DNA of 56,147 nucleotides from Sandaracinus sp. (GTDB lineage: Bacteria > Myxococcota_A > Polyangia > Polyangiales > Houyiibacteriaceae), in NCBI GenBank assembly GCA_002699025.1, contig PABA01000221.1, positions 1-56,147 on the forward strand. The letters run 5' to 3'. A program made the position numbers and the translations under genes. Positions 29,254 through 46,876 of the stretch are shown here, piece by piece. The notes under the pieces are model-generated. The model saw only the letters and a list, made by a program, of their open reading frames with translations. It had not been told where the DNA came from and searched no databases. How positions within the stretch are numbered: the first letter of the stretch is position 1; each line of letters starts with the position of its first letter.

Positions 29254-29418
29254 AGCACGCGGGACCGTCCCGCGAGCCGCCGCGCGCCGCCGCGAGCCGG
29301 AGAGGAGCTCGACCGCTCCCCGCGAGAGCTCGAGACCCCACACCGTTCGAGCCCCGGCTCGATGAAGCGCGCCTGAACGACGAGGGCGACGCCTACAGCC
29401 GAGGCGCCCCCAAAGCGC

Positions 29419-29508
29419 GCGACGGAACGAAAAAGCCCCGCGAGAAGCGGGGCCGGTGCGGTGCCCAGAGTCGGAATCGAACCAACGACACGCGGATTTT
29501 CAATCCGC
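29419..29508. repeat. attL: 90 bp direct repeat of tRNA-Phe 3' part plus terminator
   Basis: This is identical base for base to 45565-45654. It contains the reverse complement of the 3' 47 bases of tRNA-Phe (29462-29508), including the anticodon arm 3' side and T arm, then the tRNA terminator hairpin (29430-29454). It is the duplicated target left by site-specific integration. Confidence 0.95.
29430..29454 (-). terminator. Terminator hairpin copy in attL
   Basis: Reading the minus strand, a GCCCCGC stem with a 5-base loop is followed by TTTTT. It is the original tRNA-Phe terminator, now separated from the gene by the island, with an identical copy at the right end. Confidence 0.85.
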
Positions 29509-29651
29509 GTTATCCGACTCATAGGATACTGAAAACACTGCACTTTGGATCCGACAACCACGCTCGGTAGCACATCAGTAGCAAAAACCACGTCTGCTAG
29601 ATTGTTCGTGGCCGCCCAGTCTGAAACCCCGGGCGGCCACGAGAGGTGATG

Positions 29652-30431
29652 ATGGAAGCCTACTCCTCGCGCGCACGAAGCGCGACGGATGATGAAGACG
29701 GTCTCGACCTCCTGACCCGTTGGCGGAACGAGAAGTGGGAGCCAAGTCGCCAGCGCCACCTGCTGACGTCCAAGCCAACCGAAGACGAGATGCAGGTCTG
29801 GGGAGGCGCGGATCCCCTCCTGCCACCGTTTTGGCGGTACGACGCCCACGTCGCTTGCATCCACGAATGGACCGACGAACGTGGCGCTCGCCTCGAGAAG
29901 GCGATCCTTCGCTTTCTCGACTGGATCGCCGGCGAGAGCCGATGGCACGTGCTGGGTGCAGGCGTCGTGGCCCCAGGAAAGCGGTTTCGCACGCTCCACG
30001 CACACCTACTGCTGAGCCCCGATCCAGCCAACCACTGGCTCGTGAGCCCAGAGGCGGTGCGCAGGATCGCACCGTACGCAGAGGGCGACTGCGACGGGCG
30101 CGAGCAGGCCACTCTCGAGTACCTCGCCACCCGGCTCCGTGAAGCGGTCCGAACGGTGAATCTGACCCCCTTCCAGAACGATCCGAAGGTCCGGTCCTTT
30201 CACGAGCGCGATTGGATCGGGGGCCCTCTTCCGGACGATCCCCTCAGCGGGCGCAAGATGACCGACTACATCAAGGGGCACTATAAGCCCAAAGCGATAC
30301 GGATACTCCAGGCTGTGTGCCCGGGCCCGAATGCGCGGCTTCGCCGCTGCAGGCCCAAGCAGAAAGGGTGTGTTTTCGGGTATCGGCGGCGGGAGGAGCG
30401 GTTCCCGTCGCGGTCTGCTAGCTTCAAGTAG
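29652..30431 (+). CDS. HUH-type Rep/relaxase-like protein (candidate)
   Basis: The protein is ~259 aa. GTG 29646, ATG 29649 and ATG 29652 are tandem starts, and GAGAGG best fits 29652. Residues in order: HVACIHEWTDERGARLEKAI (~65), then WHVLGAGVVAPGKRFRTLHAHLLLSPDP (~98-125). The latter holds a His-Ala-His flanked by hydrophobics, as in the HUH metal motif. MTDYIKGHYKPKA (~207) could supply the motif 3 tyrosine (Tyr-x2-4-Lys/Tyr pattern of rolling-circle Reps). I infer a nicking or replication initiator-like protein of the island. It is not a confirmed family match; it could instead be an unrelated hypothetical. Confidence 0.6.
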   Translation: MEAYSSRARSATDDEDGLDLLTRWRNEKWEPSRQRHLLTSKPTEDEMQVWGGADPLLPPFWRYDAHVACIHEWTDERGARLEKAILRFLDWIAGESRWHVLGAGVVAPGKRFRTLHAHLLLSPDPANHWLVSPEAVRRIAPYAEGDCDGREQATLEYLATRLREAVRTVNLTPFQNDPKVRSFHERDWIGGPLPDDPLSGRKMTDYIKGHYKPKAIRILQAVCPGPNARLRRCRPKQKGCVFGYRRREERFPSRSASFK

Positions 30432-30692: not shown

Positions 30693-31388
30693 TCAGAGGC
30701 GCGGGAGCTGAGCGCCGTTCTCGGCGAGCCAGCGCTTGCGGCTGGCGTAGTCGGGCATGACCCGCTCCAACCGCGTCCAGAACTCCGGGGTGTGGTGGGG
30801 TTCGTGGAGGTGCACCAGCTCGTGCGCGACGATGTAGTCGACGATGCGGGGCGGGAGGAGGATGGTGCGCCAGTGGAAGTACAGGCGGTCGCCCCTACCG
30901 CACGACCCCCAGCGGTACCCGAGGTCTTGCACCAGCACCTCGGCAGGCTCCGCGCCCACCCGACGCTGCCAGCCTCGAACCCGCTTCTCGAGCCACGGCA
31001 CGGCGTGGTGCGTGTACCAGCGGACCATGTGCTCGCGACCGGCGGAGGCGACGTCACGGCGCATCTTGAAGCGACCGTGCTCGAGCTTGAGGGGCGCGTT
31101 CTGCTTCCGGACGAGCAGGAGTCGATAGCTACGGCCGAGATAGGGGAATCCCTCCCCGGACACGTACTGCTTCCGCGGGGCCTCGGCCCACAGAGCCTCC
31201 TTCTCGGCGAGCTTGGTGTAGATCCAGGAGCGCTTCTCCTGGACGAAGTTCTCCATCGTCGAGACGGGGCAGTCGTGCGGCGCCGCGAGAACCAGCTCCC
31301 CCCCACGGTCGACGGTGATCTGGACGGTCCGGCGCCGCGCGCTGCGTCGCACCTCGAACTCCAGATCGCCCACCGTGAGGGTACCCAT
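30693..31388 (-). CDS. YgjP-like zinc metallopeptidase (DUF45/M48-like)
   Basis: The protein has 231 aa. The start ATG 31388 lies two bases after the hsdR stop, so it is the last gene of the restriction operon. The N-terminal beta part (EVRRSARRRTVQITVDRGGE) and FPYLGRSYRLLLV are typical of the family. The active site is YIVAHELVHLHEPHHTPEFW: His189-Glu190-His193 with a third ligand at His198/His199. The upstream GYRWGSCGRGDRLYFHWRTILLPP is the conserved WGSC motif. YgjP-type proteins are often encoded next to type I hsdR. Their role is unproved, perhaps turnover of the restriction subunit. The 261 bp after its stop show no gene. Confidence 0.93.
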   Translation of the reverse strand: MGTLTVGDLEFEVRRSARRRTVQITVDRGGELVLAAPHDCPVSTMENFVQEKRSWIYTKLAEKEALWAEAPRKQYVSGEGFPYLGRSYRLLLVRKQNAPLKLEHGRFKMRRDVASAGREHMVRWYTHHAVPWLEKRVRGWQRRVGAEPAEVLVQDLGYRWGSCGRGDRLYFHWRTILLPPRIVDYIVAHELVHLHEPHHTPEFWTRLERVMPDYASRKRWLAENGAQLPRL

Positions 31389-31390
31389 GC

Positions 31391-34300
31391 TCAGCTCTCC
31401 TGCTGCAGCTTGTAGTCGTTGGCCTTCGCCAACTCCATGAGCCGGTCGGCCACGGGGTCGGCGCGGTCGAAGGGCACGATCTCGTTCTCGTCGAGGAACA
31501 TGAAGACCTGCCCGCGCAGCTCCTCCTGCCGGGGCGCGTTGCTCCAGAACCCGACGACCTGTACGGCCGGGCGGATCACGCGCTCGACCAGATCCACGGC
31601 CAGCTCCGCCAACCAGCGCGCGTCGTCCCCCGCGACCGGCGCCTCCTTCTCGCGCTCCTGCTTGAGCACGTCGAAGAAGGGGGCGTGCAGCTTCAGCTCG
31701 AGCCCGAGGCCCTCGTCTTCCTTCCGCCCCTCTTGCACCTCGTCCACCAGCCCCGCCAGGGCCTCCGCGAGCTTCTTCCAGTCGTCGCCGAACTTCTTCA
31801 AGAGCTCCTCCAAGCGCTCGGCCAGCCCCTGGTAGTAGACGGGGTCCTCGTCGAGCTTCTTTCGGATGTGGCTCCGGATCGCGTGCTCCATCTCCGACGC
31901 CTTCGCCCGGTTGGACGTCTGGCGCCCGACGTGCTCACCGAAGTCGGCGTCCGTGATCGCGATGGGCGGTATCTTCGGGTCGATCCCCAGCGAGATGAGG
32001 TGCTGGTCGATGAGCCGCTGGACCTTCCGCCCGATCGCCTTGCCCAGCAGCGGGAGGTCGTCGGTGCGGTATCGCCTACGGGCCCGGTCGTAGACGTCGC
32101 CGAGCGCCTGCGCGTCCCGGATGAACGGCAGCGCCTCCGGCCGGGGCAGCACCAGATCGAGCGTCGCCAGGAACTGCTTGAGCTTCACCTTGAACTCGGC
32201 CCGGAGCCGCTCGTCCTCCAGCAGCCGGACGGCGGGTTCCCCGTCCTCCACCGGGTCCACATCGCGGCTCTGGAAGAGACCGACCACGCGGGCGTGACGG
32301 TCGCGCAGCTTGGGGATCTCGTCGGCCAGGCTCTCCAACGCCCCGTCGATGTCCTCGGCGCTGTAGGCCGACAGGGCCTCCGTGAGATGGTTCGCGACGC
32401 CGTAGTAGTCGACGAGGATTCCGGCCGTCTTGCCGTGCCCAGTTCGGTTCACGCGGGCGATGGCCTGCAGCAGCTCCGCCTCGCGGATCGGCCGGTCCAG
32501 GTACATCACCCCCTCGATGGGCGCGTCGAAGCCCGTCAGCAGCATCGACTTCACGATGAGGAACGCCAGCGGGTCGCCGCCATCGTCACCCCCGGCCTCT
32601 GGGTCAGGCAGCGGCTTCTTGAAGCGCGCGATGCGGCTCTCGATCTTCGCCGCGTCGCTCCACTCTCTCCACCCGGGCGGATCGTTGTTGTCGGGCGAGA
32701 TGATCGCCGCGAACTCGAGCGCCTTCAGCGCCTCGAGCGACCGCCAGGCGCGCACCGCGACCTGCACCGTGCGCGGCCTCCCCTGCAGCGCCACGTCGTC
32801 CAGCGCACGCGTCGCGTCGTCCAGCTGCTCGGCCTCGGCCACCAGCGCGTCCCGCGCCGCCTCGAAGGCGGCCTGGTATCGCACGGACGCGCGCCGGCTA
32901 TAGGCCACGACCTGCGCCTTGAGGCCGCTCGGCAGGATGTGCTCGACGTAGTGCCGCAGCATGTCGCCCGCCTTCCGCTCGATGAGCTGCTTCGCCTCGA
33001 GGATCGCACCGCGCGTGCCGTGCTTCCGCTTGATGGCCTCCTTCTGCTTGGCGACGTCCCCCGGCTTGCCGTCCCGCTCCTTCTGCTCTCGCTCGACGAG
33101 GTCGTCGAAGAGCTGGTCGAGGTCTCCCCCATCCTTCACAGCGCCCTTGACCGTCCGCCCCTCGTAGAGGATGGGCACGGTCGCGCCGTCCTCCTCGGCT
33201 TCCTTGATGGTGTAGCGGTCGATGAACTCGCCGAAGATGGCGTGCGTGCGCTTCTTCTGGCCCATGATGATCGGCGTCCCGGTGAAGCCGATGCGGGCGC
33301 AGTGCGGAAGCGCTTGGAGCAGGTTGGCGTGCAGGGCGCTGCCGTGGCTGCGGTGGGCCTCGTCGACCATCACCAGGATGGCCTCGTCGTCGTTCAGCAG
33401 GCCCAGGTCGCCCACCTCGTCGTCGGGGCCGAGCCCGTCGAGGTCGCGGTCCTGCATCTTCTGGATCATCGCGAAGACGATGCCCGGCCCTTCCCGGCGC
33501 AGCAGCGTCTTCACCTCCCGCACCCGACGCGCCCGCTCGACGGTCTCGCCGGTCAGCTCGGCCGTCTCGGAGAGCTGCCGCTCCAGGTCCTTCCGGTCGG
33601 TGACCACGACGATCTTGAACCGCCGCAGCGCCGGGATGGAGCGCATCTTCCGCACCAGGAAGACCATCGTGAGGCTCTTCCCCGAGCCCTGCGTGTGCCA
33701 GATGATCCCGCCGCGCCGATCGTGCTCGCCGTCCTCCACCTTCGTCTTACCGTGAAGCAGCCGATGCACCGCGTAGTGCACGGCGCGAAACTGCTGGTAG
33801 CGGCAAACGATCTTCACGGTCCGCCCGCTCACCGTGTGGAAGAGCGTGAAGTGCCGGAGGATGTCGAGCAGGTGCGCGGGCCGCAGCATCCCCGCGACCA
33901 GGGTCTCCTGGCTGGAGAGGTGCTCCCGGTTCAGCTCATCCTGAACCTCGGCCCGGGCGACGGGCGCGGTATCCTTCCACTCCAGGTAGTACCGTGCGTC
34001 GGCGCCGATGGTCCCCACCCGGGCCTCGTCGTAGCTCGTCGCGACGAGGAACTGGTTCGTGTAGAAGAGCCGCTCGTTGCCCTCCCCCTCCTCGACTTCG
34101 CCGGCCGCCTTGCGGGCGTTGTGGTAGCGGCGCAGCTGGTCCACGGCGGCGGCGATGGGCTCCGACACGCCCGGGCTCTTGCACTCGACCACCACCACCG
34201 GGATCCCGTTGATGAAGAGCGTGATGTCCGGCCGGATGGAGCCCTTCGCCTGGCCGCCGGGGCAGTCCACCTTGAACTGGCTCACGGCCACGAATCGGTT

Positions 34301-34681
34301 CTTCTCCGGGTGCGCCCAGTCGATGAAGTGAATGGTCCGGGCCCGCCCCCCATCCCAGCCCGGCAACCCCTCGACCTGCACGCCCTTCAGGAGCAGCTCG
34401 GTCGCTTCCTGGTTGGCCTCGATGAGCTTCTTCTGCGCGATGCGCTCCAGCGCGCTGACCGCCTGCGAGAGGCGGGCGTCGTCCAGCCAGGGCTCCCCAT
34501 CCCGCAGGTTGATGCGCGCGAGCGCCGCCCGGAGTTCCTCCTTCATCAGGACCTCGCGGAAGGACTCGCGCCCGGTCACCGAAGGGAAATCCACGCTCCC
34601 CTCGACGACCTTCCACCCCATCGTCGCGAGCTGCTCCAGGAAGGGCCGCTCGACCTCGCTGAGCTCGGGCCCGCCGGTCAT
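31391..34681 (-). CDS. hsdR: Type I restriction endonuclease subunit R
   Basis: The protein has 1096 aa, usual for HsdR. The N-terminal nuclease domain has Asp152 and VVVVECKSPG with Glu166/Lys168 (PD-(D/E)xK). The helicase motor has Walker A HTQGSGKS (329-336), DEAH box VDEAHRSHG (439-447), GFTGTP, and motif VI-like QAIARVNR. The C terminus is helical, for docking to HsdM/HsdS. It translocates DNA with ATP and cuts unmodified DNA as part of the R2M2S complex. The start ATG overlaps the stop of a small ORF by four bases. No frameshift is seen, so it looks active. Confidence 0.97.
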   Translation of the reverse strand: MTGGPELSEVERPFLEQLATMGWKVVEGSVDFPSVTGRESFREVLMKEELRAALARINLRDGEPWLDDARLSQAVSALERIAQKKLIEANQEATELLLKGVQVEGLPGWDGGRARTIHFIDWAHPEKNRFVAVSQFKVDCPGGQAKGSIRPDITLFINGIPVVVVECKSPGVSEPIAAAVDQLRRYHNARKAAGEVEEGEGNERLFYTNQFLVATSYDEARVGTIGADARYYLEWKDTAPVARAEVQDELNREHLSSQETLVAGMLRPAHLLDILRHFTLFHTVSGRTVKIVCRYQQFRAVHYAVHRLLHGKTKVEDGEHDRRGGIIWHTQGSGKSLTMVFLVRKMRSIPALRRFKIVVVTDRKDLERQLSETAELTGETVERARRVREVKTLLRREGPGIVFAMIQKMQDRDLDGLGPDDEVGDLGLLNDDEAILVMVDEAHRSHGSALHANLLQALPHCARIGFTGTPIIMGQKKRTHAIFGEFIDRYTIKEAEEDGATVPILYEGRTVKGAVKDGGDLDQLFDDLVEREQKERDGKPGDVAKQKEAIKRKHGTRGAILEAKQLIERKAGDMLRHYVEHILPSGLKAQVVAYSRRASVRYQAAFEAARDALVAEAEQLDDATRALDDVALQGRPRTVQVAVRAWRSLEALKALEFAAIISPDNNDPPGWREWSDAAKIESRIARFKKPLPDPEAGGDDGGDPLAFLIVKSMLLTGFDAPIEGVMYLDRPIREAELLQAIARVNRTGHGKTAGILVDYYGVANHLTEALSAYSAEDIDGALESLADEIPKLRDRHARVVGLFQSRDVDPVEDGEPAVRLLEDERLRAEFKVKLKQFLATLDLVLPRPEALPFIRDAQALGDVYDRARRRYRTDDLPLLGKAIGRKVQRLIDQHLISLGIDPKIPPIAITDADFGEHVGRQTSNRAKASEMEHAIRSHIRKKLDEDPVYYQGLAERLEELLKKFGDDWKKLAEALAGLVDEVQEGRKEDEGLGLELKLHAPFFDVLKQEREKEAPVAGDDARWLAELAVDLVERVIRPAVQVVGFWSNAPRQEELRGQVFMFLDENEIVPFDRADPVADRLMELAKANDYKLQQES

Positions 34682-34830
34682 CGAGCGAGCCTCGCCATAA
34701 CGTAAACGTCATGGCAGCCGTATAGCGCTCCAGCGCTACCCCAGACAAAAACACCCGAAACCACTGAGCTTTTCGCGCACCCCGGGTTTCGCGTAAACGT
34801 AAGCTCTATACGTATTCGGGCTCGAGCCAT
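34678..34830 (-). CDS. Small ORF coupled at both ends between ATPase gene and hsdR
   Basis: The ORF has 50 aa, beginning MARARIRIELTFTRNPGCAK and ending VYVMARLAR. Its ATG overlaps the upstream ATPase stop (TGATG), and its stop overlaps the hsdR start (ATGA), so ribosomes could pass through three genes without a break. The DNA is unusually AT-containing and holds two ACGTTTACG copies about 90 bp apart. The sequence has no recognised domain. It may be a leader or coupling ORF rather than a functional protein. Confidence 0.45.
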   Translation of the reverse strand: MARARIRIELTFTRNPGCAKSSVVSGVFVWGSAGALYGCHDVYVMARLAR

Positions 34831-36491
34831 CAGGAAGGCTCCTCGGTCACGGGGTAATACCGAGCCCAACGCCGAACCCCCTCCCTGCGCAGCCGGCCAT
34901 CCCGCACGAGCCGAGCGAGCAGCTGGGTCGCCTGATCGGGGGTGAGCGTACGACACAGCTCCAGCACGTCCTTTCGGGCCACCGAGCCATGGTGCGCCGC
35001 GTGATTCAGGACGAGCTCCTCCTGCCGAGCGCGATCGAGGCCCACCTGCCGCGTGTACTCGGCCTTGGCGCCCTCCTCCGCGTAGAAGTCCCGGGCCAAC
35101 ATGTAGGTCCTCGCCTTGGTGTTCCCGCGCCGCTCGATGAGCCCCGCTTCGACGAGCCGCCCGAGCTTCCTCCGGGCGTCGTCGACCGGCCGCTGCATGG
35201 CCTCGGCGAGCTCGGCGGTCGTCATCCGGCGCACCTCGCGCAGCCGAGACAGGACGATCAGGCTCTCGATGGGCAGGGCCGCGCCCGCCCGCCGCTCCGC
35301 CTCGAGGATGGCCCTGATGAACTGCAGGTCGGTATCCGCAGCCGGCAAGCGCAGCACCACGGTCGTCGCGTCGGAGCGGCTGTAGTCGGGGGCAGGTCGA
35401 CCGAAGCGGAGCACCTGACGGTAGATGAGGTCCACCCCGCGACCGGTCCGCTCGGCCAAGCCGATGCGCTTGAAAGCGTCCGCGAGCACCGGGTTTCGTG
35501 GGCGCGGGGGCGTCGTGAGGATGTTCTGGGGAGACACCCCTTCGACGAAGCCCCCCGGATTGCTCAAGGTCAGCTCCTCGTCATCCAGCTTCACGTGGAC
35601 GGCTCCGAGTCGCGTGTAGTCGCGATGCACGAGCGCGTTGGCGACCGCCTCGCGAAACGCCTGGAGATCGACTCGGGGGACACCGACGCGGAAGAGCCCG
35701 ACCTGCAACTCCTTCTCGCGGTTGCGTGCCTTGAACTGGGTCTCGATCCACTCCACCACCCGCAGGAGCGGCGCCCGGCTGAACTCGTTGTAGCGAACCT
35801 CTTCGCCCTCCAGCACCTGGAAGGCGACCTCGTGGGTCGGGACGAGTCGCCGGATGGCCTCGTCCCGGCCGAGCAGGAGCAGCCCCGCCAGGGTCGGGAG
35901 ACCGGTCGTGGCGTCTACCAGGCCGAGGGCGCCATCCAGCTCTCCGTCGGATAGGTCGAGCAGGGCGCGTTCGCCGTGGAAGCGGTCGACGAACTGGCGC
36001 AGCCGGGCGCGCTCGACGGGGTCGAGGTCCGCCGCCGTGGCCGCCGACACGGGCTGCGCGCTGGCATCCATCGCGCCCAGGTCCGAGAGCCGCCTCGAGA
36101 TCTCCCCCGGCAACATCGGCACGCACTCCGGGCGCCCATCGGAGCCGATCCGGCGGCGCTTCATCGTGCCCTGGCTCGTGGCGACGACCTCGCGCGCCTT
36201 CGGCACCTCGATCCGGGCGACGAGCCGCCCCTCCATCTCGAGGCGCTCGACCCTCACGTGCACCGACGGCGAGGTGTGGTTGGCGACCATCGCCGGCAGA
36301 CCCACGACGTTCTGGTGACTCGGGTGGAGCCCCGTGACGCGGCCGTCGTCCTCGACTCCGAGGTAGATGGAGCCTCCCTCGGTGTTGGCCAGGCACACGA
36401 TGGCCTCGGCCAGCTCCGCGTCCGAGAGGCGCTTCTGATCGCTCTTGAACTCGATCGTCAGAGTCTCCGCGGCCGGTATCGAACGCGTCAT
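34830..36491 (-). CDS. AlbA_2/Schlafen-type ATP-binding protein with HATPase_c_4-like domain
   Basis: The protein has 553 aa. The N-terminal ~10-140 is the AlbA_2 (Schlafen-like) domain: TIEFKSDQKR and GSIYLGVEDDGRVTGLHPS. The middle ~275-375 has EAVANALVHRDYT, LSNPGGFVEGVSPQNIL and NPVLADAFKRIGLAERTGRG, the ATPase-like C-terminal domain usual in this family. The last ~150 residues include two winged-helix-like segments (MTTAELAEAMQRPVDDARRK and EELVLNHAAHHGSVARKDVL). Such proteins are frequent companions of type I systems in defence islands. A regulator or nucleic-acid sensor is inferred, not shown. Gap to hsdS is 40 bases. Confidence 0.9.
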   Translation of the reverse strand: MTRSIPAAETLTIEFKSDQKRLSDAELAEAIVCLANTEGGSIYLGVEDDGRVTGLHPSHQNVVGLPAMVANHTSPSVHVRVERLEMEGRLVARIEVPKAREVVATSQGTMKRRRIGSDGRPECVPMLPGEISRRLSDLGAMDASAQPVSAATAADLDPVERARLRQFVDRFHGERALLDLSDGELDGALGLVDATTGLPTLAGLLLLGRDEAIRRLVPTHEVAFQVLEGEEVRYNEFSRAPLLRVVEWIETQFKARNREKELQVGLFRVGVPRVDLQAFREAVANALVHRDYTRLGAVHVKLDDEELTLSNPGGFVEGVSPQNILTTPPRPRNPVLADAFKRIGLAERTGRGVDLIYRQVLRFGRPAPDYSRSDATTVVLRLPAADTDLQFIRAILEAERRAGAALPIESLIVLSRLREVRRMTTAELAEAMQRPVDDARRKLGRLVEAGLIERRGNTKARTYMLARDFYAEEGAKAEYTRQVGLDRARQEELVLNHAAHHGSVARKDVLELCRTLTPDQATQLLARLVRDGRLRREGVRRWARYYPVTEEPS

Positions 36492-36531: not shown

Positions 36532-37824
36532 TCATTCGGCCGCCTCCTCCAGGAGCGCGGTGACGCGGACGCGGCCGGTGAGGAGGTCCTCCATGAGGCC
36601 TTGCTTCACCAACCGGAGCTTCCCCGCGTCGTGCTCCTCAGCGCCAATGCGCCTGTCGAGGGTCGCAACTCTGCTCGCGAGGCGATCCTGCTCTTCTGTG
36701 GGCGGTAGCGGCACAAGGAACTTCGACAGCTCGCCGAGGGTCACTGTCTTCTGTGCGTTGCCGATGGCAACTACGTCGGCGTGCCGCCGAGCTTGTGGGC
36801 CGTTGAGGATGAGCGCGAGATAGCCGCCGCGCAGCCGGTTCTGCACGGGATAGATGCAAGCGATGTGGCGTTGGAAGGCGAACGGACGTTGGTGGCTCAC
36901 TACCGCCGCATGACCGAAGGAGCCCACCGCCGTGTAGAGGACCATCCCCGCATCTGGTTCCCGGCCGCGTGAGATCTCAGCGAAAGTGCGCGTTGTGATT
37001 CGCGCCGCACGATCCCAGTGGATGACGCCGTCCCGGATGCACGACACGTAGAGGAACGGCACCGTGTTGTCCTGGTGGAGGACCGTGCGGACGGCCTGAT
37101 GCGTGCCATCTGTAACGCGATGGCTCAGCGCTCCAAGGGGCATCACCTCCCACGCCTTCGGAATCCGCCCGAGGGGGGAGTCCTTGAACTGCTCGGGGTG
37201 GCGGTCGGGGTCGCGCAGCTCGCCGTTGTCGTCGATGCCGCGGGTGAGGAGGTCGTGGAGCAGGCCCTGCTTCACCTGCTCGAGCTTGGCGATGATCTCC
37301 TCGGTCTTCCGAATCGCCTCATCGACCGTGTCGAGGATCTCCGCGATCCGCCGCTGCTCGGGGAGGGGCGGGATCCACACCGGAAGCCCTTGGAGATGCT
37401 TAGCCCCGATGTGGATGACCGAGCTGCCCTGGCCAAGGCGTGCCTTGAACCTCGCGGCGTCAGTGGTGTTTGCTGCGTAGCTGAGGAAGACCGGGTCGGC
37501 GCCTGGTCTGGGAGTGAAGATGATCGTGTCTCCTCCCGCGACGGCGGGCTCGTCGCCGACGAAGACAGCGCCCTGGCCGATTTCGGCGTGCGTCTCACCG
37601 GAGGCAGCGAAGACGATGTCCCCCGGCGCTAGTCGCGTGTATCGAGACGCCGCGGCCGGGTCGATGAACGAAACAAACCGGCGGATCCGGATGTGGTGCG
37701 CCGTATACAGCTCGCCGTACCGAACGCACGGTACGCCTTCCAACCGGGCGTCCTTCTTCGTACCGCCCTGTCCGCGCGAGAATGTACCAAGATCACCCAG
37801 GCGGCTGGTGAGGGTTTCAGGCAT
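36532..37824 (-). CDS. hsdS: Type I restriction-modification specificity subunit S
   Basis: The protein is 430 aa from ATG 37824, which overlaps the hsdM stop by eight bases. It has two target-recognition domains (~5-165 and ~215-375). Each is followed by a conserved helical spacer: [20 protein letters not shown]...[12 protein letters not shown] and [20 protein letters not shown]...[13 protein letters not shown]. It sets the bipartite DNA target of the complex; the target cannot be read from sequence. Both halves are intact. Confidence 0.96.
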
Positions 37825-40213
37825 ACCCCAGCCCCCCAAGGAACTCGCGCAGCTTGCCCGCCGCAGCGTCGCGGTCCTCCTCGATGCTCGTCAGGGTGGT
37901 TCGGTACTTGTCCCACCAGCCCTCGAACGCGGAGACGAGCTGCTGCCGATGGTCGGCGACGTAACGCCCGAGGATGGCGTCCAGGTCGGCGCGGAGGATG
38001 CCGAGCGCCAGGTCCCTCGCCCCGTCCTCGTCGAGCGCTGCGCGGGCCTCCTTGAGCCGCTTGGTGAAGTTGCCTTCTTTCGTCTTGAGCTTCTTCTTCA
38101 CCGCGCTCAGCTCCTTCTTGAGCGCCTTCACCTCGGCCTCCGAGAGCTGCTCCTCGGACTCCTCGTCTTCGTCTTCGTCGGATGCCGTCGCGCCCTTGAT
38201 GGTCGCGTCCAGCTCGGCCTTCTTCGCCTCCAGCTCGGAGATGGCTTCGAGGTACTCCGGGAGCAGGCGCCGGACGAGGCGGTGGTCGAAGGGGTTGTCC
38301 TTGTTCTTCTTGTCCTCCATCGCCGTGAGGATGCTGACCTCCCACGCCTCGATGAGGCCGAGGAAGCCTCGGGCGGCAATCGTCTTGAGGTCGTTCTGCA
38401 CGTCGCCCCACCAGGTCGCGACCACGCCCGAGACCTGGAAGCGGTCGAGGAGACCCACGGGCCGCAGCGCGTCCTCGAAGCTCACGAGGAGCTGCTCGCG
38501 GAGGGTCATGAGCTGGTTGGTGTTGGGCAGCGCGGCGATGTCGTCGCGGTTGGCCGACCACCAGGTCTCGACGGCGTCGGTAAGCGCCCGCTCCTTCGCG
38601 GCCACGCCCTCGTCGGCCACGATGCGCTTCTTGAGGTCGGCCTTCTCGGCGAGGCCGTCCGCGAAGTCGAGGTAGCGGTCGTCCTTGTCCGTGAGCAGGT
38701 GCCGCGGGTCGAGGCCGTGGGCGTCGAAGAGGGGGCGCTTCGACTCGACCTCGGCCTTGGGGATGCCGCCGAAGAGGTGCGCGCGAACGTCGTGGGGCTC
38801 GGGCGGTGGGGCGTTGTCGGCGTAGCGGCGGATGTTGAGGTTGTCGTCGTTGTCCCGGAGCTCCTCGCGGCTGACGACGCGGGCGAAGCCCTCGATGTCC
38901 TCGAAGGCGCGCCAGGCGCTGACGATCTTCTCGATGTGCTCGGGGTACAGGTAGTTCTGTGCCCGGCCCTCGTAGAACTCGCGGTCCGCGTTGATGAAGA
39001 GCACCTTGCCCTTCCGCTCGGAGGGCTTGGCGCCGGGCGCGCGGAGCACGAGTAGGCACGCGGGGATGCCGGTGCCGTAGAAGAGGTTCGGGCCGAGGCC
39101 GATGACCGCGTCGAGCTGGTCGGCGTCGAGGATGCCGGTGCGGATCTCCTTCTCCTTGCTGCCGCGGAAGAGCACGCCGTGGGGCATGACGGTGACGCAC
39201 ATCCCGCCCGGCCGGAGCACAGCGAGCATGTGCTGGACGAACATGAGGTCCGCCTTCTTGCCGCCCTCGGGGCAGAAGCCGAAGCGGAAGCGCTCCGGGA
39301 AGGGGATGCCGGCCTTCGTGTAGTTCTGGCTGAAGGGCGGGTTGGTGAGGACGCGGTCGAAGCGCATCAGCTCGCCGCCCTCGGTGTGCATCGGCTCGGC
39401 CAGGGTGTCCCCGTTGCGCATGTCGGCGTCGGGGATGCCGTGGAGGAGCATGTTCATCTTGCTGATCGCCCAGACGCTCCCGTTCGACTCCTGGCCGTAG
39501 AGGCCGAGGTTGCGGGAGTCGAAGCGGTGCTCGTCGAGGTACTCCTTGGAGAGGACGAGCATGCCGCCCGAGCCCGAGCAGGGGTCGTAGATGCGCATGC
39601 CCTCCTCGGGGGCGGCGATGCGGACCATCATGCGGACCACGGAGCGGGGCGTGTAGAACTCGCCGCCCTTCTTGCCGGCCGAGTCGGCGAAGTCGCGGAT
39701 GAGGTACTCGTAGGCGGCGCCGAGGAGGTCCGGGTACTCGAAGTCCTCGTTGCGGAGGCGGTGCACGGAGAAGTGCGCGATGAGGTCGCGGAGCTTCTTG
39801 TCCGACAGCTTCGACTGGCCGACCTTCCGGTTGAAGTCGATGTGGGCGAGGACGCCTTCGAGGCTGGTGTTGGTCTCTTCGAGGGCCGCGAGGGCCTTGT
39901 TGAGGCCGTCGCCGACGTTGTGGTGGACGTCGTTCAGGAGGTGGGCCCAGCGGGCCTCGGGCGGCACGAAGAAGTGCTCGCCGGCGTAGTAGCTCGGGTG
40001 GTTGGCGCGCTTCTCCGCTTCTTCGCGGGAGCGGCCGCGTTCGAGCTCGCGCGCGATGACCTCCTCGAAGCGCTCGTCGAAGACGTCCGAGCAGCGCTTC
40101 AGGAAGAGGACGCCGAAGATGTACTCCTTGAACTCCGAGGCATCCATCTTGCCGCGGAGGATGTCGGCGGCAGCGAAGAGGTGGCGTTCGAGCTGAGGCA
40201 GGGTCAGGGGCAT
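37817..40213 (-). CDS. hsdM: Type I N6-adenine DNA methyltransferase subunit M
   Basis: The protein is 798 aa. ATG 40213 is chosen because [21 protein letters not shown] is the usual HsdM beginning; the frame is open to 40273. SAM-binding motif I is DPCSGSGGM (210-218), and catalytic motif IV is NPPF (291-294), with [14 protein letters not shown] just before motif I. The C-terminal ~250 residues are a charged, coiled-coil-like extension ([20 protein letters not shown]), making it longer than the classical ~500 aa HsdM but like other large M subunits. It protects host DNA by adenine methylation. Confidence 0.97.
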
Positions 40214-40516: not shown

Positions 40517-40780
40517 TCAGCCTTTCGGAGGCCGGCCGCGGCGCGCGTCCCGACTCTCCGGCGGAGCGAAGAGCTCGGCCACGCCGACAGCCAAGACCGC
40601 GGCGAGCTTCACGAGCGAGCGAACCGAGAGGTTCGCCCGACCGCTCTCGATGCGCTGCAGGTACTTCACCGAGAAGTCGGCCTTCTCGGCGAAGACCTGC
40701 TGAGTCCAGCCTCGGCGTGTGCGCAGCTCGGCGACCCGACGACCGAGGTCGCGAAGCACGGCATCGGCGTCGCCTTCCAC
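40517..40780 (-). CDS. XRE-family HTH regulator, controller-protein-like
   Basis: The protein is ~87 aa from GTG 40780; GTG 40759 is another possible start and neither has a good ribosome site. The helix-turn-helix is LGRRVAELRTRRGWTQQVFA then EKADFSVKYLQRIESGRANLSVRSLVKLAAVLAV, with the classic xxLQRIExGR recognition region. The tail is ARRGRPPKG. Size and place upstream of hsdM on the same strand resemble C proteins that time restriction gene expression, though those usually serve type II systems. It is divergent from a lipoprotein gene. Confidence 0.85.
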   Translation of the reverse strand: MEGDADAVLRDLGRRVAELRTRRGWTQQVFAEKADFSVKYLQRIESGRANLSVRSLVKLAAVLAVGVAELFAPPESRDARRGRPPKG

Positions 40781-40838
40781 CGGGGAGAGGCTCGAAGGCG
40801 TGCCGTGGTGATAAAACCAACCTATCAGTGGGTGTCCA

Positions 40839-42140
40839 GTGGTCCGATTCGCTCTCGCTCTCCTGATCCTGGCGGGCTGCGTGGTATCTCCGCGCCGCTC
40901 GACTGCGCCGTCGCCCGCCGCCGAACCGGGTCCGCTGACGCCGGCCGTGACCCCGAACCACGAGGAGGAGCGGGCCACGCGCCGCGTGCGGTTCTTCCCA
41001 GGCGAGGGAGAGGTATCCGTCCAGGTCTGGGTCTTCGACGAGTGGTGTACGCAGCGGAACGAGTGCCGCGAGGTATCCGTCGCCGGGGCAACGGTGGAGA
41101 TCTGGACCAACGGCGGCCTCGAAGCCTCGCGGGTCACGGACGAGCGGGGTGTCGTGCGTCTCGGGGACGCGGAGCTTCGACGCGTGGGGTCGCTCCACGT
41201 CAACGGGACACGGATCCGCGGCGCGGATGAGGCCCTCCGCCAGCTGGTCGGCCGCATGCGCGCCGAGCTGGCAGGAGTCGGCGGTACCCCGGAGTTGAGG
41301 GGCGAGGTCAGCACCGGGGAGGGGGCGGCGCCTCCGCTCCGCATCCGAGTCGCGTCCCGCAGCTGCGCCTCGGAGGACTGCCCCTGGTCGCCAGTCGCGC
41401 ACGTCTCGGTCGAGCTACAGGGTGCCTCGGAGGCGGGCGCGACGGTATCCGTCTCCGGGCGCACGGATCGACAGGGGGTGGCCGAGATTCCCCTCCAGGA
41501 GGTCGCCGATGGCCTGCTCGAGAGCGTGGCTCCCTACACGCTGGTGGTCGACGGCGCGCGGATGGTGGAGCCGACGGGTACGGCCCGAGCGCTGGAGCGG
41601 ATGCGACGCCGGGCGCACATCGCGCGACTCTTCCGGCAGGACGAACGGGTCGTGACGGTCTGGGACGGGGGGCTGGCGGGGCTCCCGGTCGCGGGCGGTC
41701 AGCGTCGGCAGATCGCCGCCGCCTGCCGCCGGGCGAACCTCCGTTGGCAGCGGCGCGACGATGGGGCCTTCGAATGCATCGGCTACGATCTGCCGACGCC
41801 CAGGCACGTCGCGGATCACCGCGGCGCGAAGATCGTCTACGTCTTCGACGGGGATACCGTGCGTGAGGCGCGGCTTGCCCTGCCCTACGCACACACCGGC
41901 CTCGCGGAGCGTGCCGGGACCAACCTCGCTTGGGAGATCATGCGGCGGCGCGGCCCGTGGCGCGACGGGGGCGGCGGTTGGGCAAGCTGGGTGCGGACCT
42001 GGCACGTCCAGGACGTCGAGGGGCGCTCCTGGGACCTGAGCGTCGGGCAGAACGGGGTGTCCCTGATCCTGCAGTATCGGGTGCGACCGGACCGGCCACC
42101 TTCGAACCATCCTCTGAGTCCCCTCGACACCCCTCAGTAG
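40839..42140 (+). CDS. Island-borne lipoprotein of unknown function
   Basis: The protein has 433 aa from GTG 40839. The signal peptide ends at lipobox ILAGC (Cys14). The mature part has two similar beta domains: VSVQVWVFDEWCTQRNECREVSVAGATVEI and VSVELQGASEAGATVSVSGRTDRQGVAEI. These resemble carboxypeptidase-regulatory or Ig-like folds that display hydrophobic strands and a TDxxGV turn. The C-terminal ~150 residues (YDLPTPRHVADHRGAKIVYV) are unrecognised. Use of GTATCC codons is unlike the core genes. A surface or periplasmic protein on a defence island is unusual. No partner is evident. Confidence 0.8.
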   Translation: MVRFALALLILAGCVVSPRRSTAPSPAAEPGPLTPAVTPNHEEERATRRVRFFPGEGEVSVQVWVFDEWCTQRNECREVSVAGATVEIWTNGGLEASRVTDERGVVRLGDAELRRVGSLHVNGTRIRGADEALRQLVGRMRAELAGVGGTPELRGEVSTGEGAAPPLRIRVASRSCASEDCPWSPVAHVSVELQGASEAGATVSVSGRTDRQGVAEIPLQEVADGLLESVAPYTLVVDGARMVEPTGTARALERMRRRAHIARLFRQDERVVTVWDGGLAGLPVAGGQRRQIAAACRRANLRWQRRDDGAFECIGYDLPTPRHVADHRGAKIVYVFDGDTVREARLALPYAHTGLAERAGTNLAWEIMRRRGPWRDGGGGWASWVRTWHVQDVEGRSWDLSVGQNGVSLILQYRVRPDRPPSNHPLSPLDTPQ

Positions 42141-42438: not shown

Positions 42439-42861
42439 GTGGGCCGGCGAGACCAGCTGTGGCGCGACCTGGAGAGGGCTCTCGAGCCCTTCCCGGCGTT
42501 CCTGAGCGCCGCCGACCTGCGCGAGCTGCTCGGTATCTCGAAGTCCGCCGCCCATCGACTGCTGGCCGAAGAGCTTCCCGTCACGACCATCGGAGACCGA
42601 ATGAGGCGGGTCTCCAAGAGCGCAGTGCTGCGCTACCTACACGAAAGGACGAGAGACCCATGTCACGGATGTACCGCAAGGGAAACAGCAAGAACTGGTA
42701 CGGCTGGTTCTACGACCCAGCCGGCAAGCGCATCACCCGATCGCTCCGCACGACGGACAAGAGGGTCGCGCGCCGGAAGCTCCAGCGCCTCGAACGAGAC
42801 GCCTTCGATCCGGCTCGTGCAACCGAGGACCAGGCCACGGAACGCCTCGAAGACGCGCTGA
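42439..42861 (+). CDS. Excisionase-like small HTH protein overlapping the integrase gene
   Basis: GTG 42439 starts a frame of 140 aa. The first ~74 residues are convincing: FPAFLSAADLRELLGISKSA then AHRLLAEELPVTTIGDRMRRVSKSAVLRYLHERTRD. This is the AlpA/excisionase-type winged HTH with a sheet end. The remaining ~66 residues run antiphase inside the integrase gene and look like non-protein translation, so the natural stop may have been lost. It would direct excision or control int. Confidence 0.65.
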   Translation: MGRRDQLWRDLERALEPFPAFLSAADLRELLGISKSAAHRLLAEELPVTTIGDRMRRVSKSAVLRYLHERTRDPCHGCTARETARTGTAGSTTQPASASPDRSARRTRGSRAGSSSASNETPSIRLVQPRTRPRNASKTR

Positions 42862-43721
42862 TGCGGCACCTTCGAGAGGCCGAAGCGAGGCTCTCGAAGG
42901 CGACCGTGCAGATGTATCGGCAGAAGTCGGGCCACCTGCGCCGGGTGCTCGGGAACCCCCGGCTGCGCGAGCTGGCGCGGAACGACGTGCTGGAGTTCGT
43001 GTCGACGCGGCAGGCCGAGGGGGCCTCCAACCATACGATCGTGAAGGAGCTGGGGACCCTTCGCCAAGCGCTCAAGCTGGCGCGGACCAGCGGCACGTTC
43101 CACCGGGACACGGGCGCCGTCATCCCGAAGCTCTCCGCGAAGTACGTGCCCAAGGACCGTTTCCTGACGCGGGCGGAGTTCCGCGCGCTGCGGGACGCGC
43201 TGCCCGAGGATCGGCGGGTCTGGGTGACCGTGGCGGTCTTCACGGGTGCACGCTTGAGCGAGCTGCGGCGTCTTCGCTGGGAGCACGTGGACCTGGAAGC
43301 GCGCCGGGTTCGCGTGCGCGGGACGAAGACGCGCGCCAGCGACCGTTGGGTCCCGATGAGCCCGGCGCTCGCAGAGGCGCTCGGGTCGGTCCCCGAAGAG
43401 GAGCGCCGCGACCGGGTGCTGAGCCACTGGAAGAACGTCCGGCGTGACCTCGCCGCCGCGTGCGACCGGCTCGGGATTCCGCGCGTCAGCCCCAACGACC
43501 TCCGTCGCACCCTCGCGTCATGGCTCAAGCAGGAGGGGGTCGACTCGATGATCGTCGCGCGGCTGCTCGGTCACACCACGTCGCGGATGGTCGAGCAGGT
43601 GTACGGGCACCTGGACGATGCCGCGAGGAAGGCCGCCGTCGCGAAGCTCCCGCCGATCGACGGGCCCGACCACGGGGAAGACAACGTGATCGCGCTGCCC
43701 ATCGGTCGCACCGGGAGCTAG
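42660..43721 (+). CDS. int: Tyrosine site-specific recombinase (island integrase)
   Basis: The protein is 353 aa from ATG 42660. The N-terminal arm-binding start is MSRMYRKGNSKNWYGWFYDP and the SAM-like core-binding part is ~60-165. The catalytic domain has Arg in TGARLSELRRLRW, Lys in GTKTRASDRW, and Arg in PNDLRRTLASW. It continues with His in LLGHTTSRMVEQVYGHL and Tyr in the same motif. The box II His is replaced by Asn (NDLRR), seen in some phage-type integrases. It would act on the 90 bp attachment repeats at the tRNA-Phe gene. Confidence 0.95.
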   Translation: MSRMYRKGNSKNWYGWFYDPAGKRITRSLRTTDKRVARRKLQRLERDAFDPARATEDQATERLEDALMRHLREAEARLSKATVQMYRQKSGHLRRVLGNPRLRELARNDVLEFVSTRQAEGASNHTIVKELGTLRQALKLARTSGTFHRDTGAVIPKLSAKYVPKDRFLTRAEFRALRDALPEDRRVWVTVAVFTGARLSELRRLRWEHVDLEARRVRVRGTKTRASDRWVPMSPALAEALGSVPEEERRDRVLSHWKNVRRDLAAACDRLGIPRVSPNDLRRTLASWLKQEGVDSMIVARLLGHTTSRMVEQVYGHLDDAARKAAVAKLPPIDGPDHGEDNVIALPIGRTGS

Positions 43722-44332: not shown

Positions 44333-44916
44333 GACTCGAGGTCTCCGTGAATGAGGTCGATCAGGGCGACGCTTCCTTGAAGCGCGCGCGTGGGCGGCGG
44401 AGGGCTCGCGAGGAGGCGCGAGCGGCGGGTGTACTCCCGCTCAGGATTGGAGTCCCCGAAGGCGATGGCGTGCTGCGCCATGAACCGCTCCAAGGAGACG
44501 CGCGGTCCCCGGTACATGCCCGCCTGGTGCATGAGCAGGAGCGCGTCGCGACGATCCAGCTGACGCAGCCGGTGGACGACTCGCGCTTCTCCCTGTCTGA
44601 GGTCTCGCTCGACAGCGCTCAGGGCGTCCCGGGCGGGTTGCGCGAAGCCGTCGAGTGTCATCGACGCCGCCGCGAAGAAGAGGTCCGGCGAGAGCTCGCG
44701 GGCGGACACCTCCCCCTTCTCCGCCAGCGCGAGGAGTGATCGCATCTCGAGTTCGGCGGCAAGGTCGATGTGCTCGGAGTCGAGCCCGTGCGCGAAGATG
44801 TTCGCTTCGCCACGCGCGTGGTCGGCCAGCAGGAGGCCGAGCCGGCACAGCTGCCAGAGCGCGAAGCGCGCGAGGCAGCGGACGGCCGGGCGGCCGTCGA
44901 TCGCCCACACGGCCAT
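44329..44916 (-). CDS. Island protein of unknown function, possibly 5' truncated
   Basis: The protein has 195 aa from ATG 44916; the frame stays open to 45159, but that part is antisense to the DUF4357 remnant. The product is mostly helical (AVWAIDGRPAVRCLARFALW, LAAELEMRSLLALAEKGEVS, RDALSAVERDLRQGEARVVH) with no motif that I recognise. The reading frame may have lost its natural start where the DUF4357 fragment joins near 44940-44960. It is coupled by ATGA to the glycine-zipper gene. Confidence 0.6.
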   Translation of the reverse strand: MAVWAIDGRPAVRCLARFALWQLCRLGLLLADHARGEANIFAHGLDSEHIDLAAELEMRSLLALAEKGEVSARELSPDLFFAAASMTLDGFAQPARDALSAVERDLRQGEARVVHRLRQLDRRDALLLMHQAGMYRGPRVSLERFMAQHAIAFGDSNPEREYTRRSRLLASPPPPTRALQGSVALIDLIHGDLES

Positions 44917-44958
44917 CCCGTGGCGAAGGTCGCGCAGGAGCCCGTCCGGCGGTGCAGC

Positions 44959-45489
44959 TTGGAGCTCGAGAACGGAAACGCGCCCTCCGTCCCCTCCCTG
45001 CCGCGCTCGGAGCGCGACGCCATGGAGGAGTTCCTCGGACCCCTCACCGTTCTGCTCGGCTCCCTCGGGTTCAACGCCCTCCAGCCCGTCTCGGCCCGCC
45101 CCCAGCCCGCGATCGAGGCGGACTCTCCGCTCAGCGGCCGTCCGCTCTTCTTCACCCAATCCAAGCGTCCCATCAGCGCACGTGGCGCATCGACCGACGA
45201 AGGCTTCGTTGTGTTCGAAGGCTCACGTGGCGATGCCCAGATCCGAAGCTCACTCGGCAAGGGGTATCTCGCTCTTCGGCTGGACCTGATTGGCGAGGGC
45301 GCCATCGTCGAGGAGGGCGACACCATTCGCTTCGTTCGCGACGTGCTGTTCAGCAGCCCGTCGGCCGCTGCGGCGATTCTCGCCGGAGGTGCCTACAACG
45401 GGCGCGAAGCCTGGCGCGACGCGCAGGGCGTGACCCTCAAGGAGCTGGAGGACCAGCTCGCTGCCCGCGCCGACGTGGAGGAGCCCTGA
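44959..45489 (+). pseudogene. C-terminal remnant of a GIY-YIG/DUF4357 protein
   Basis: The frame reads LELENGNAPSVPSLPRSERD then AMEEFLGPLTVLLGSLGFNAL, which is the linker typical of GIY-YIG nuclease-DUF4357 fusions. It goes on to DEGFVVFEGSRGDAQIRSSL, FSSPSAAAAILAGGAYNGRE and AWRDAQGVTLKELEDQL, the DUF4357 domain. The GIY-YIG nuclease part is missing, and upstream sequence is antisense to an unrelated gene. A short product could still start at TTG 44959 or ATG 45022 (155 aa). It stops 76 bases before the attachment repeat. Confidence 0.75.
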
Positions 45490-45564
45490 GCGGCGGGCCC
45501 AAGCGGTAGCACATGGGTAGCAAACCCATGGTCCCCGGTGGGACGCATGGGACGCGCGAAGAGG

Positions 45565-45654
45565 GCGACGGAACGAAAAAGCCCCGCGAGAAGCGGGGCC
45601 GGTGCGGTGCCCAGAGTCGGAATCGAACCAACGACACGCGGATTTTCAATCCGC
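45565..45654. repeat. attR: 90 bp direct repeat inside tRNA-Phe
   Basis: This is identical to 29419-29508. The island's copy restores the tRNA-Phe 3' part and its terminator after insertion. Confidence 0.95.
45576..45600 (-). terminator. Rho-independent terminator of tRNA-Phe
   Basis: On the minus strand a GCCCCGC stem with GCGGGGC pairs over a 5-base loop and is followed by TTTTT, just after the tRNA 3' end. Confidence 0.93.
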
Positions 45655-45680
45655 TGCTCTACCAACTGAGCTATCTGGGC
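45608..45680 (-). tRNA. tRNA-Phe (GAA)
   Basis: The 73 nt fold as a cloverleaf: acceptor GCCCAGA/TCTGGGC, D arm with AGCTCAGTTGGTAGAGC, anticodon stem GCGGA/TCCGC with loop TTGAAAA (anticodon GAA), T arm with GGTTCGATTCC. The discriminator is A. The 3' CCA is not fully encoded (CCG follows), so it is added later. The 3' 47 nt are shared with attL. Confidence 0.98.
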
Positions 45681-46842: not shown

Positions 46843-46876
46843 AGACGGGCGCGGCCCTCTCGGACCGCGCCCGTCT
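46843..46876. terminator. Bidirectional terminator hairpin
   Basis: A perfect 12 bp stem, AGACGGGCGCGG with CCGCGCCCGTCT, and a 10-base loop lie between the convergent SseB and hydrolase genes. No T-run; termination by the stem for both directions is likely. Confidence 0.75.

Follow-up and report, generated by a model that had tools for sequence, protein, structure and literature searches.

A gene at the end of a Sandaracinus integrative island most likely encodes a replication protein that nicks DNA and belongs to a little-studied family recurring in similar islands

The gene at 29652-30431 (+) of a 56,147-nucleotide stretch of DNA (the whole stretch analysed, hereafter the window) from Sandaracinus sp., a marine relative of the myxobacteria, probably codes for an HUH endonuclease with a single tyrosine, a divergent one of the PF23343 (REP_ORF2-G2P) kind, acting as replication or mobilisation initiator of the island on which it lies. 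The family to which this product most likely belongs is little studied and recurs in similar islands. We consider it very probable that the product is an HUH Rep-type protein, and somewhat less so that the island still depends on it for replication or mobilisation.

Results

The island and its cargo

A direct repeat of 96 nt, 98% identical between its copies at 29413-29508 and 45559-45654 (spacing 16,146 bp), covers the 3′ half of tRNA-Phe. A tRNA-Phe was called by ARAGORN at both copies, 29460-29534 (−) and 45606-45680 (−), and the right one is probably the host gene, because it alone has its 5′ half outside the island. The left att copy (29413-29508) also contains a terminator-like hairpin (site at 29434-29454, −), and the right att site with its tRNA-Phe spans 45559-45680. 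As the first-pass annotation had placed them, the rep gene stands at the left end of the island, just inside the left repeat, and an integrase lies near the other end: a tyrosine integrase with a Phage_integrase domain is found at 42663-43721 (+) (PF00589, 2e-23). Two marks of an integrative and mobilizable element, an integrase and att repeats, are present; for a third, a relaxase or oriT that would allow transfer through the channel of a helper, the Rep-like protein is the only candidate. The island is most likely an integrative, defence-carrying element.

The cargo includes a type I restriction cluster on the minus strand, with HsdR at 31391-34681 (TIGR00348, 6.5e-129), the specificity subunit HsdS at 36532-37839 (PF01420) and the methyltransferase HsdM at 37817-40213 (PF02384, 9.6e-96); a Schlafen/AlbA_2 protein is encoded between HsdR and HsdS (34830-36491, −; PF04326, 2.7e-17). 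Directly after HsdR in this cluster comes a YgjP-like metallopeptidase (30693-31388, −; PF01863, 6.1e-57). Further along are an HTH_3/HTH_31 regulator (approximately 40517-40900, −; Pfam), a 433-aa ORF with no assigned family, and an HTH_17 protein (approximately 42439-42705, +; PF12728, 1.6e-6), a possible excisionase, whose frame (42439-42861) overlaps the start of the integrase gene in a different frame. The last cargo gene, at 44770-45489 (+), encodes a DUF4357 protein (PF14267, 1.4e-17; PADLOC PDC-S14). Its residues 64-232 match only the C-terminal half of PDC-S14, a candidate defence family (146-315 of 320), so that a defence gene may have been truncated here, close to the right att site. 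In the island proteins scanned, nothing was recognised as a capsid or other phage protein, nor as a coupling or secretion protein.

The candidate rep gene

The ORF starts with an ATG at 29652, ends with its stop at 30431 and encodes 259 aa. An alternative in-frame GTG at 29646 gives a protein of 261 aa, called P0001, whose numbering is used for all residues below. The stretch GAGAGGTG upstream of the ATG makes a good ribosome-binding site, and the C-terminal end of P0001 reads CPGPNARLRRCRPKQKGC. From 29640 to about 30300 the ORF frame has the best codon usage of the six frames, and GC by codon position (0.68/0.50/0.77) is coding-like. Third-position GC and codon bias are nevertheless below those of most neighbouring genes, and the codon-usage signal drops over the last ~40 codons, that is, over the Cys tail described below.

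The segments GVVAPGK, HAHLLL and DYIKGHYK occur in the translation, in agreement with the motifs on which the first-pass annotation had based its proposal of a nicking protein. An HxH is found by chance in 25% of shuffles; with hydrophobic flanks the figure falls to 2.6%, and with a later Y..K..K in addition to 0.13%, this last pattern having been composed after the sequence was seen. Taken by itself we regard the motif pattern as suggestive evidence for an HUH protein, and only that.

Searches with P0001 alone

With P0001 by itself, Pfam and PHROGs gave no match at E ≤ 10, which leaves it below the curated PF23343 cut-off of 27.8 bits, and NCBIfam and PADLOC gave none at 0.001. Against PDB sequences there was one match, by chance. 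Plasmids and phages (tblastn) gave no match, four scans of viral contigs no relative, and no P0001-like protein was seen beside integrases related to that of the window in 15 regions. At a threshold of 0.01, matches were obtained in 7 of 282 phylum genomes and in 6 of 183 order genomes, one in each set being the window itself. The other 11 (6 phylum, 5 order; E 4e-4 to 0.01) were dropped as spurious after translation: several lay in clearly different proteins, 4 contained stops and none had the motif set. The sole match in a genome contig, CALDQK010000100.1 from a metagenome bin titled ERR599081 (presumably a sea-water run), was not kept as a homologue either: over 11,110 bp it agrees with the window at every position (100% identity) and is hence the same locus.

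An AlphaFold model made without an alignment had a pLDDT of 32. The strand-helix-strand-strand order predicted agrees with an HUH fold, but at this pLDDT it was given no weight, and the Foldseek matches were disregarded for the same reason; none of the 50 listed was named as an HUH protein.

Relatives in Myxococcota

A search for PF23343 in 188 phylum genomes gave 4 places in 3 genomes and no match in the window's own genome. The proteins found have an HxH strand, then a Tyr, then a three-Cys tail of the form CPR..CRRK.GC. Searched with a profile of four members, 377 genomes yielded 9 places, spread over 7 of them; the window's genome was absent from these matches, 9 of its 104 candidates having been scored. 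Eight distinct members were aligned (alignment A3). All 8 match PF23343 at E ≤ 0.1, and at E ≤ 0.01 at most 3 of the 8 match any one of three replication-initiation PHROGs. Searching the PDB with the 8-member profile gave 7 matches, 4 of them HUH Reps by name, which we take to mean HUH folds, at a non-significant E of 0.35-0.49.

A profile including P0001 then had matches in 15 of 317 class genomes. Setting aside the window and two weak matches, the 17 matches come down to 14 places in 12 genomes. The two weak ones are probably decayed copies, one being a Rep of which little more than the N-terminal part is left (L086, genome G361) and the other a Cys-tail fragment (L087, G263). Genome G111 has two near-identical Rep copies (L067 594-1100 and L068 7-510), both of which lack the first His of HxH (AYH). 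Of the near-identical G111 pair L062/L068, a single copy entered the alignments, while both stayed in the count of 14.

P0001 compared with the relatives

Profiles built without P0001 were used for testing it, and E values are given as for single tests. The 4-member profile gave P0001 5.9 bits, a score equalled or exceeded by 6 of 5,000 shuffles; the 8-member profile gave 13.4 bits (E = 3.3e-6; 0 of 5,000 shuffles). With 13 members the score was lower, 10.4 bits (E = 2.4e-5; 2 of 20,000 shuffles), and this test is not wholly independent, as the last 5 members had been found with the profile holding P0001. Among the 2,997 ORFs of the window and 15 other regions, P0001 ranked first with both larger profiles (13.1 versus 6.7 bits for 8 members, 10.2 versus 7.2 bits for 13), and the reversed P0001 as well as nine other island proteins scored 0.6 bits at most or were unreported. 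Comparison of P0001 with the relatives by hhalign was weaker than the profile search (probability 22.5%, E 9e-4).

A motif not conserved among homologues, which the first-pass annotation would have counted against its reading, was not what we found. The pair H118/H120 (H118-A-H120, codons at 29997-30005, +) aligns with the HxH of motif II, in a hydrophobic strand, in 12 of 13 relatives, the exception being L067 with YH. The candidate catalytic tyrosine lies in YIKGHY, from Y208 to Y213 (codons at 30267-30284, +). Alignment favours Y208, which falls on the family Tyr of motif III (usually YxxK/H), invariant in 9 alignment rows; a first alignment had placed Y159 rather than Y208 at this column, and a strict YxxK is found at Y213-K-P-K. 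After the Tyr, C225, C235 and C242 (codons within 30318-30371, +) align with the conserved tail Cys, C-(x)n-C-R-(x)n-C, of the relatives, L084 being without the third one. The ordered HxH-Y-three-Cys pattern is present in P0001 and in 11 of 13 relatives, in no other of the 2,997 ORFs and in none of 100,000 shuffles, though it was composed after the alignment was seen. Two features set P0001 apart: at motif I, near the first strand, it has ACIH instead of the TLTF, or a variant of it, seen in most relatives, and the distance from HxH to Tyr is longer by about 45 residues.

The HUH-type reading is in this way supported, indirectly, by profiles of HUH Reps from other Myxococcota built without P0001, and the His pair, the Tyr and the three Cys align with conserved residues. 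P0001 can be described, from its sequence, as a divergent member of the Myxococcota three-Cys subfamily (not of PF23343 by Pfam's own cut-off): we call it a member because profile and motifs match, and divergent because motif I is not recognisable and the insertion of ~45 residues is present. Of the proposed likeness to Reps and relaxases, that to Reps is supported. In classical relaxases the order of His pair and Tyr differs from that in Reps; a classical relaxase is unlikely here, because the Tyr comes after the His pair, as in Reps, and was rejected on this motif order. A RAYT/IS200-type transposase, a mark of which is a YIxxNP pattern, was considered and set aside on that pattern.

Genomic context of the relatives

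For 6 of the 14 relatives a PF00589 tyrosine integrase is found at a distance of 10 kb or less, for an expectation of 0.40 (P about 1e-6 if all 14 places are independent; the two G111 copies are not). PF00589 was searched in the 12 genomes that hold these relatives and in that of the window, and the expectation was derived from the integrase density of each genome. The six are in G154 (two), G111 (contig C110), G362, G317 and G322. The other 8 of the 14 have no Pfam integrase within 10 kb; for three of these the contig ends about 0.6 kb away or less, and several others are on short contigs. A possible integrase near L094, seen by motif only, was left uncounted as Pfam did not report it. One of the two G111 Rep copies adjoins an integrase that is itself next to a tmRNA.

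Two relatives lie in islands with perfect repeats at both ends and integrase and Rep inside: 25-nt repeats 11.1 kb apart at the 3′ end of a tmRNA (L071), and 44-nt repeats 11.3 kb apart at the 3′ half of a tRNA-Thr (L072), where an HTH_17 protein and the Rep adjoin the outer repeat. At L064 the order is tmRNA, integrase, an AlpA-like protein just under the Pfam cut-off, Rep, and Schlafen/AlbA_2; at L090 a tRNA-Arg is found at the start of the Rep frame. By Pfam, a Schlafen/AlbA_2 protein with HATPase_c_4 is encoded both on the island of the window (34830-36491) and at L064 (3283-4746), and the protein at L091 7453-8352 resembles it by eye only. Such a protein may be recurrent cargo of these islands.

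A hairpin before the gene

Between the left att repeat and the rep gene, at 29606-29642, the two arms of an inverted repeat pair perfectly over 12 bp around a loop of 13 nt; the repeat ends 9 nt before the rep ATG. Only one other perfect 12-bp stem with a loop of up to 20 occurs in the 56-kb window (46843-46876), and it is outside the island. Folded as DNA, the hairpin before the gene reaches −16.8 kcal/mol (z −4.04; 0 of 200 shuffles). It could serve as the origin at which the strand is nicked, act as an operator, or form an RNA structure ahead of the ribosome-binding site. Around the 14 relatives, from 400 bases before to 300 bases after each, the longest stems had 9 bp and none reached 12 bp, in a search where several stretches end at contig ends and some starts were guessed.

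Discussion

A role for the protein, and alternatives

HUH proteins in general nick an origin and become attached to the 5′ end, and a single strand is rolled out by host enzymes (PMC5714925, from the part of that text available). On this model, the integrase, probably with the HTH_17 protein, would excise the island between the two tRNA-Phe repeats. Rep would bind an origin near its own gene, for which the hairpin at 29606-29642 is a candidate, and would nick one strand by Y208 (or Y213), with H118/H120 holding a metal ion. It would remain on the 5′ end, and rolling-circle synthesis by host enzymes would proceed from the 3′ end. The single-stranded copy could give a higher copy number, passage via the transfer or packaging machinery of another element, or both, and the circle would reintegrate at tRNA-Phe. 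Our reading of the gene hence suggests that the island, once excised, could be copied or transferred in single-stranded form.

Three other explanations were weighed. The nick may serve conjugative mobilisation through the channel of another element rather than copying, P0001 being then a Rep-like, non-canonical relaxase; we see this as a possibility of the second rank. Streptococcal IMEs do pair a tyrosine integrase and an excisionase with a relaxase related to rolling-circle proteins (PMC5357655, in the portion available), and the island has a similar set in its integrase, HTH_17 protein and Rep-like protein. On the other hand, in streptococcal IMEs these are neighbouring genes, whereas here Rep is 12 kb from the integrase, and the scan of island proteins recognised no coupling or secretion gene. 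Less likely again is that the gene is the non-functional remnant of an HUH Rep, the island moving, if at all, by its integrase alone. The lost motif I, the insertion, and the weak codon bias that fades at the 3′ end would fit such decay; yet the frame is open, the ribosome-binding site good and the hairpin before the gene perfect, and none of the motif residues (two His, the Tyr, three Cys) is missing.

It is improbable that P0001 is not an HUH protein at all, and that an orphan gene resembles one by chance, even though single-sequence searches yielded no relative in 282 phylum genomes, 183 order genomes, viral contigs, phages or plasmids, and the structure model was unusable: profile scores, shuffles and the ranking among ORFs all favour the HUH Rep family. 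We keep a replication or mobilisation initiator of the island as the preferred reading.

Comparison with known systems

P0001 is like the Myxococcota subfamily of PF23343 Reps in its HxH strand after a helix-strand unit, its downstream Tyr and its three-Cys tail, and the subfamily too is found, in several cases, on tRNA or tmRNA islands with a tyrosine integrase. It is unlike PF23343 Reps in falling below Pfam detection, in lacking a TLTF-like motif I and in the ~45 residues added between HxH and Tyr. Among better known elements, the actinomycete ICEs (AICEs, pSAM2-type) likewise are integrated elements; their integrase is of the tyrosine or serine type, and their rolling-circle initiator, RepSA, is an HUH protein (PMC3218068, in the extract available). 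Unlike them, the island has no recognised FtsK/SpoIIIE-type Tra among the proteins scanned; RepSA (PF20199) matched 2 of 8 relatives, weakly. Streptococcal IMEs, according to the sections available of PMC5357655, are small elements whose tyrosine integrase acts mostly at the 3′ ends of tRNA or ribosomal-protein genes, and this island is also small, with a tyrosine integrase and with repeats of a tRNA 3′ half at its ends. They differ from it in having other Rep families, an adjacent gene order and often TcpA.

Given their likeness to known AICEs and IMEs, these islands are not new in kind; for Myxococcota, our searches of open-licence papers listed no such elements. The way in which small islands lacking transfer genes move is treated as an open question in the part available of PMC11389934. 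An initiator with a conserved tail offers a handle on it, as the family can be searched for, the origin mapped and a helper sought, and our reading, if true, would link restriction cargo to a single-stranded stage of life. More tentatively, and with some doubt on our side, Myxococcota may carry a class of tRNA/tmRNA islands with a three-Cys HUH initiator as hallmark, which would make single-stranded copies of the excised circle, whose cargo (type I restriction, Schlafen/AlbA) would travel via a helper, and in which the Cys tail would be a metal-binding module recognising the origin or a partner.

Phages were considered as well. An inovirus was set aside, no such gene having been recognised among the island proteins scanned, and the island differs from Microviridae in that neither a capsid nor another phage gene was recognised in the same scan. 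Compared by eye with the relatives, the Rep of the Citromicrobium phage vB_Cib_ssDNA_P1, considered here among Microviridae initiators, is without the CPR..CRRK tail; one of the relatives matches this phage Rep with 29% identity (E 4e-4).
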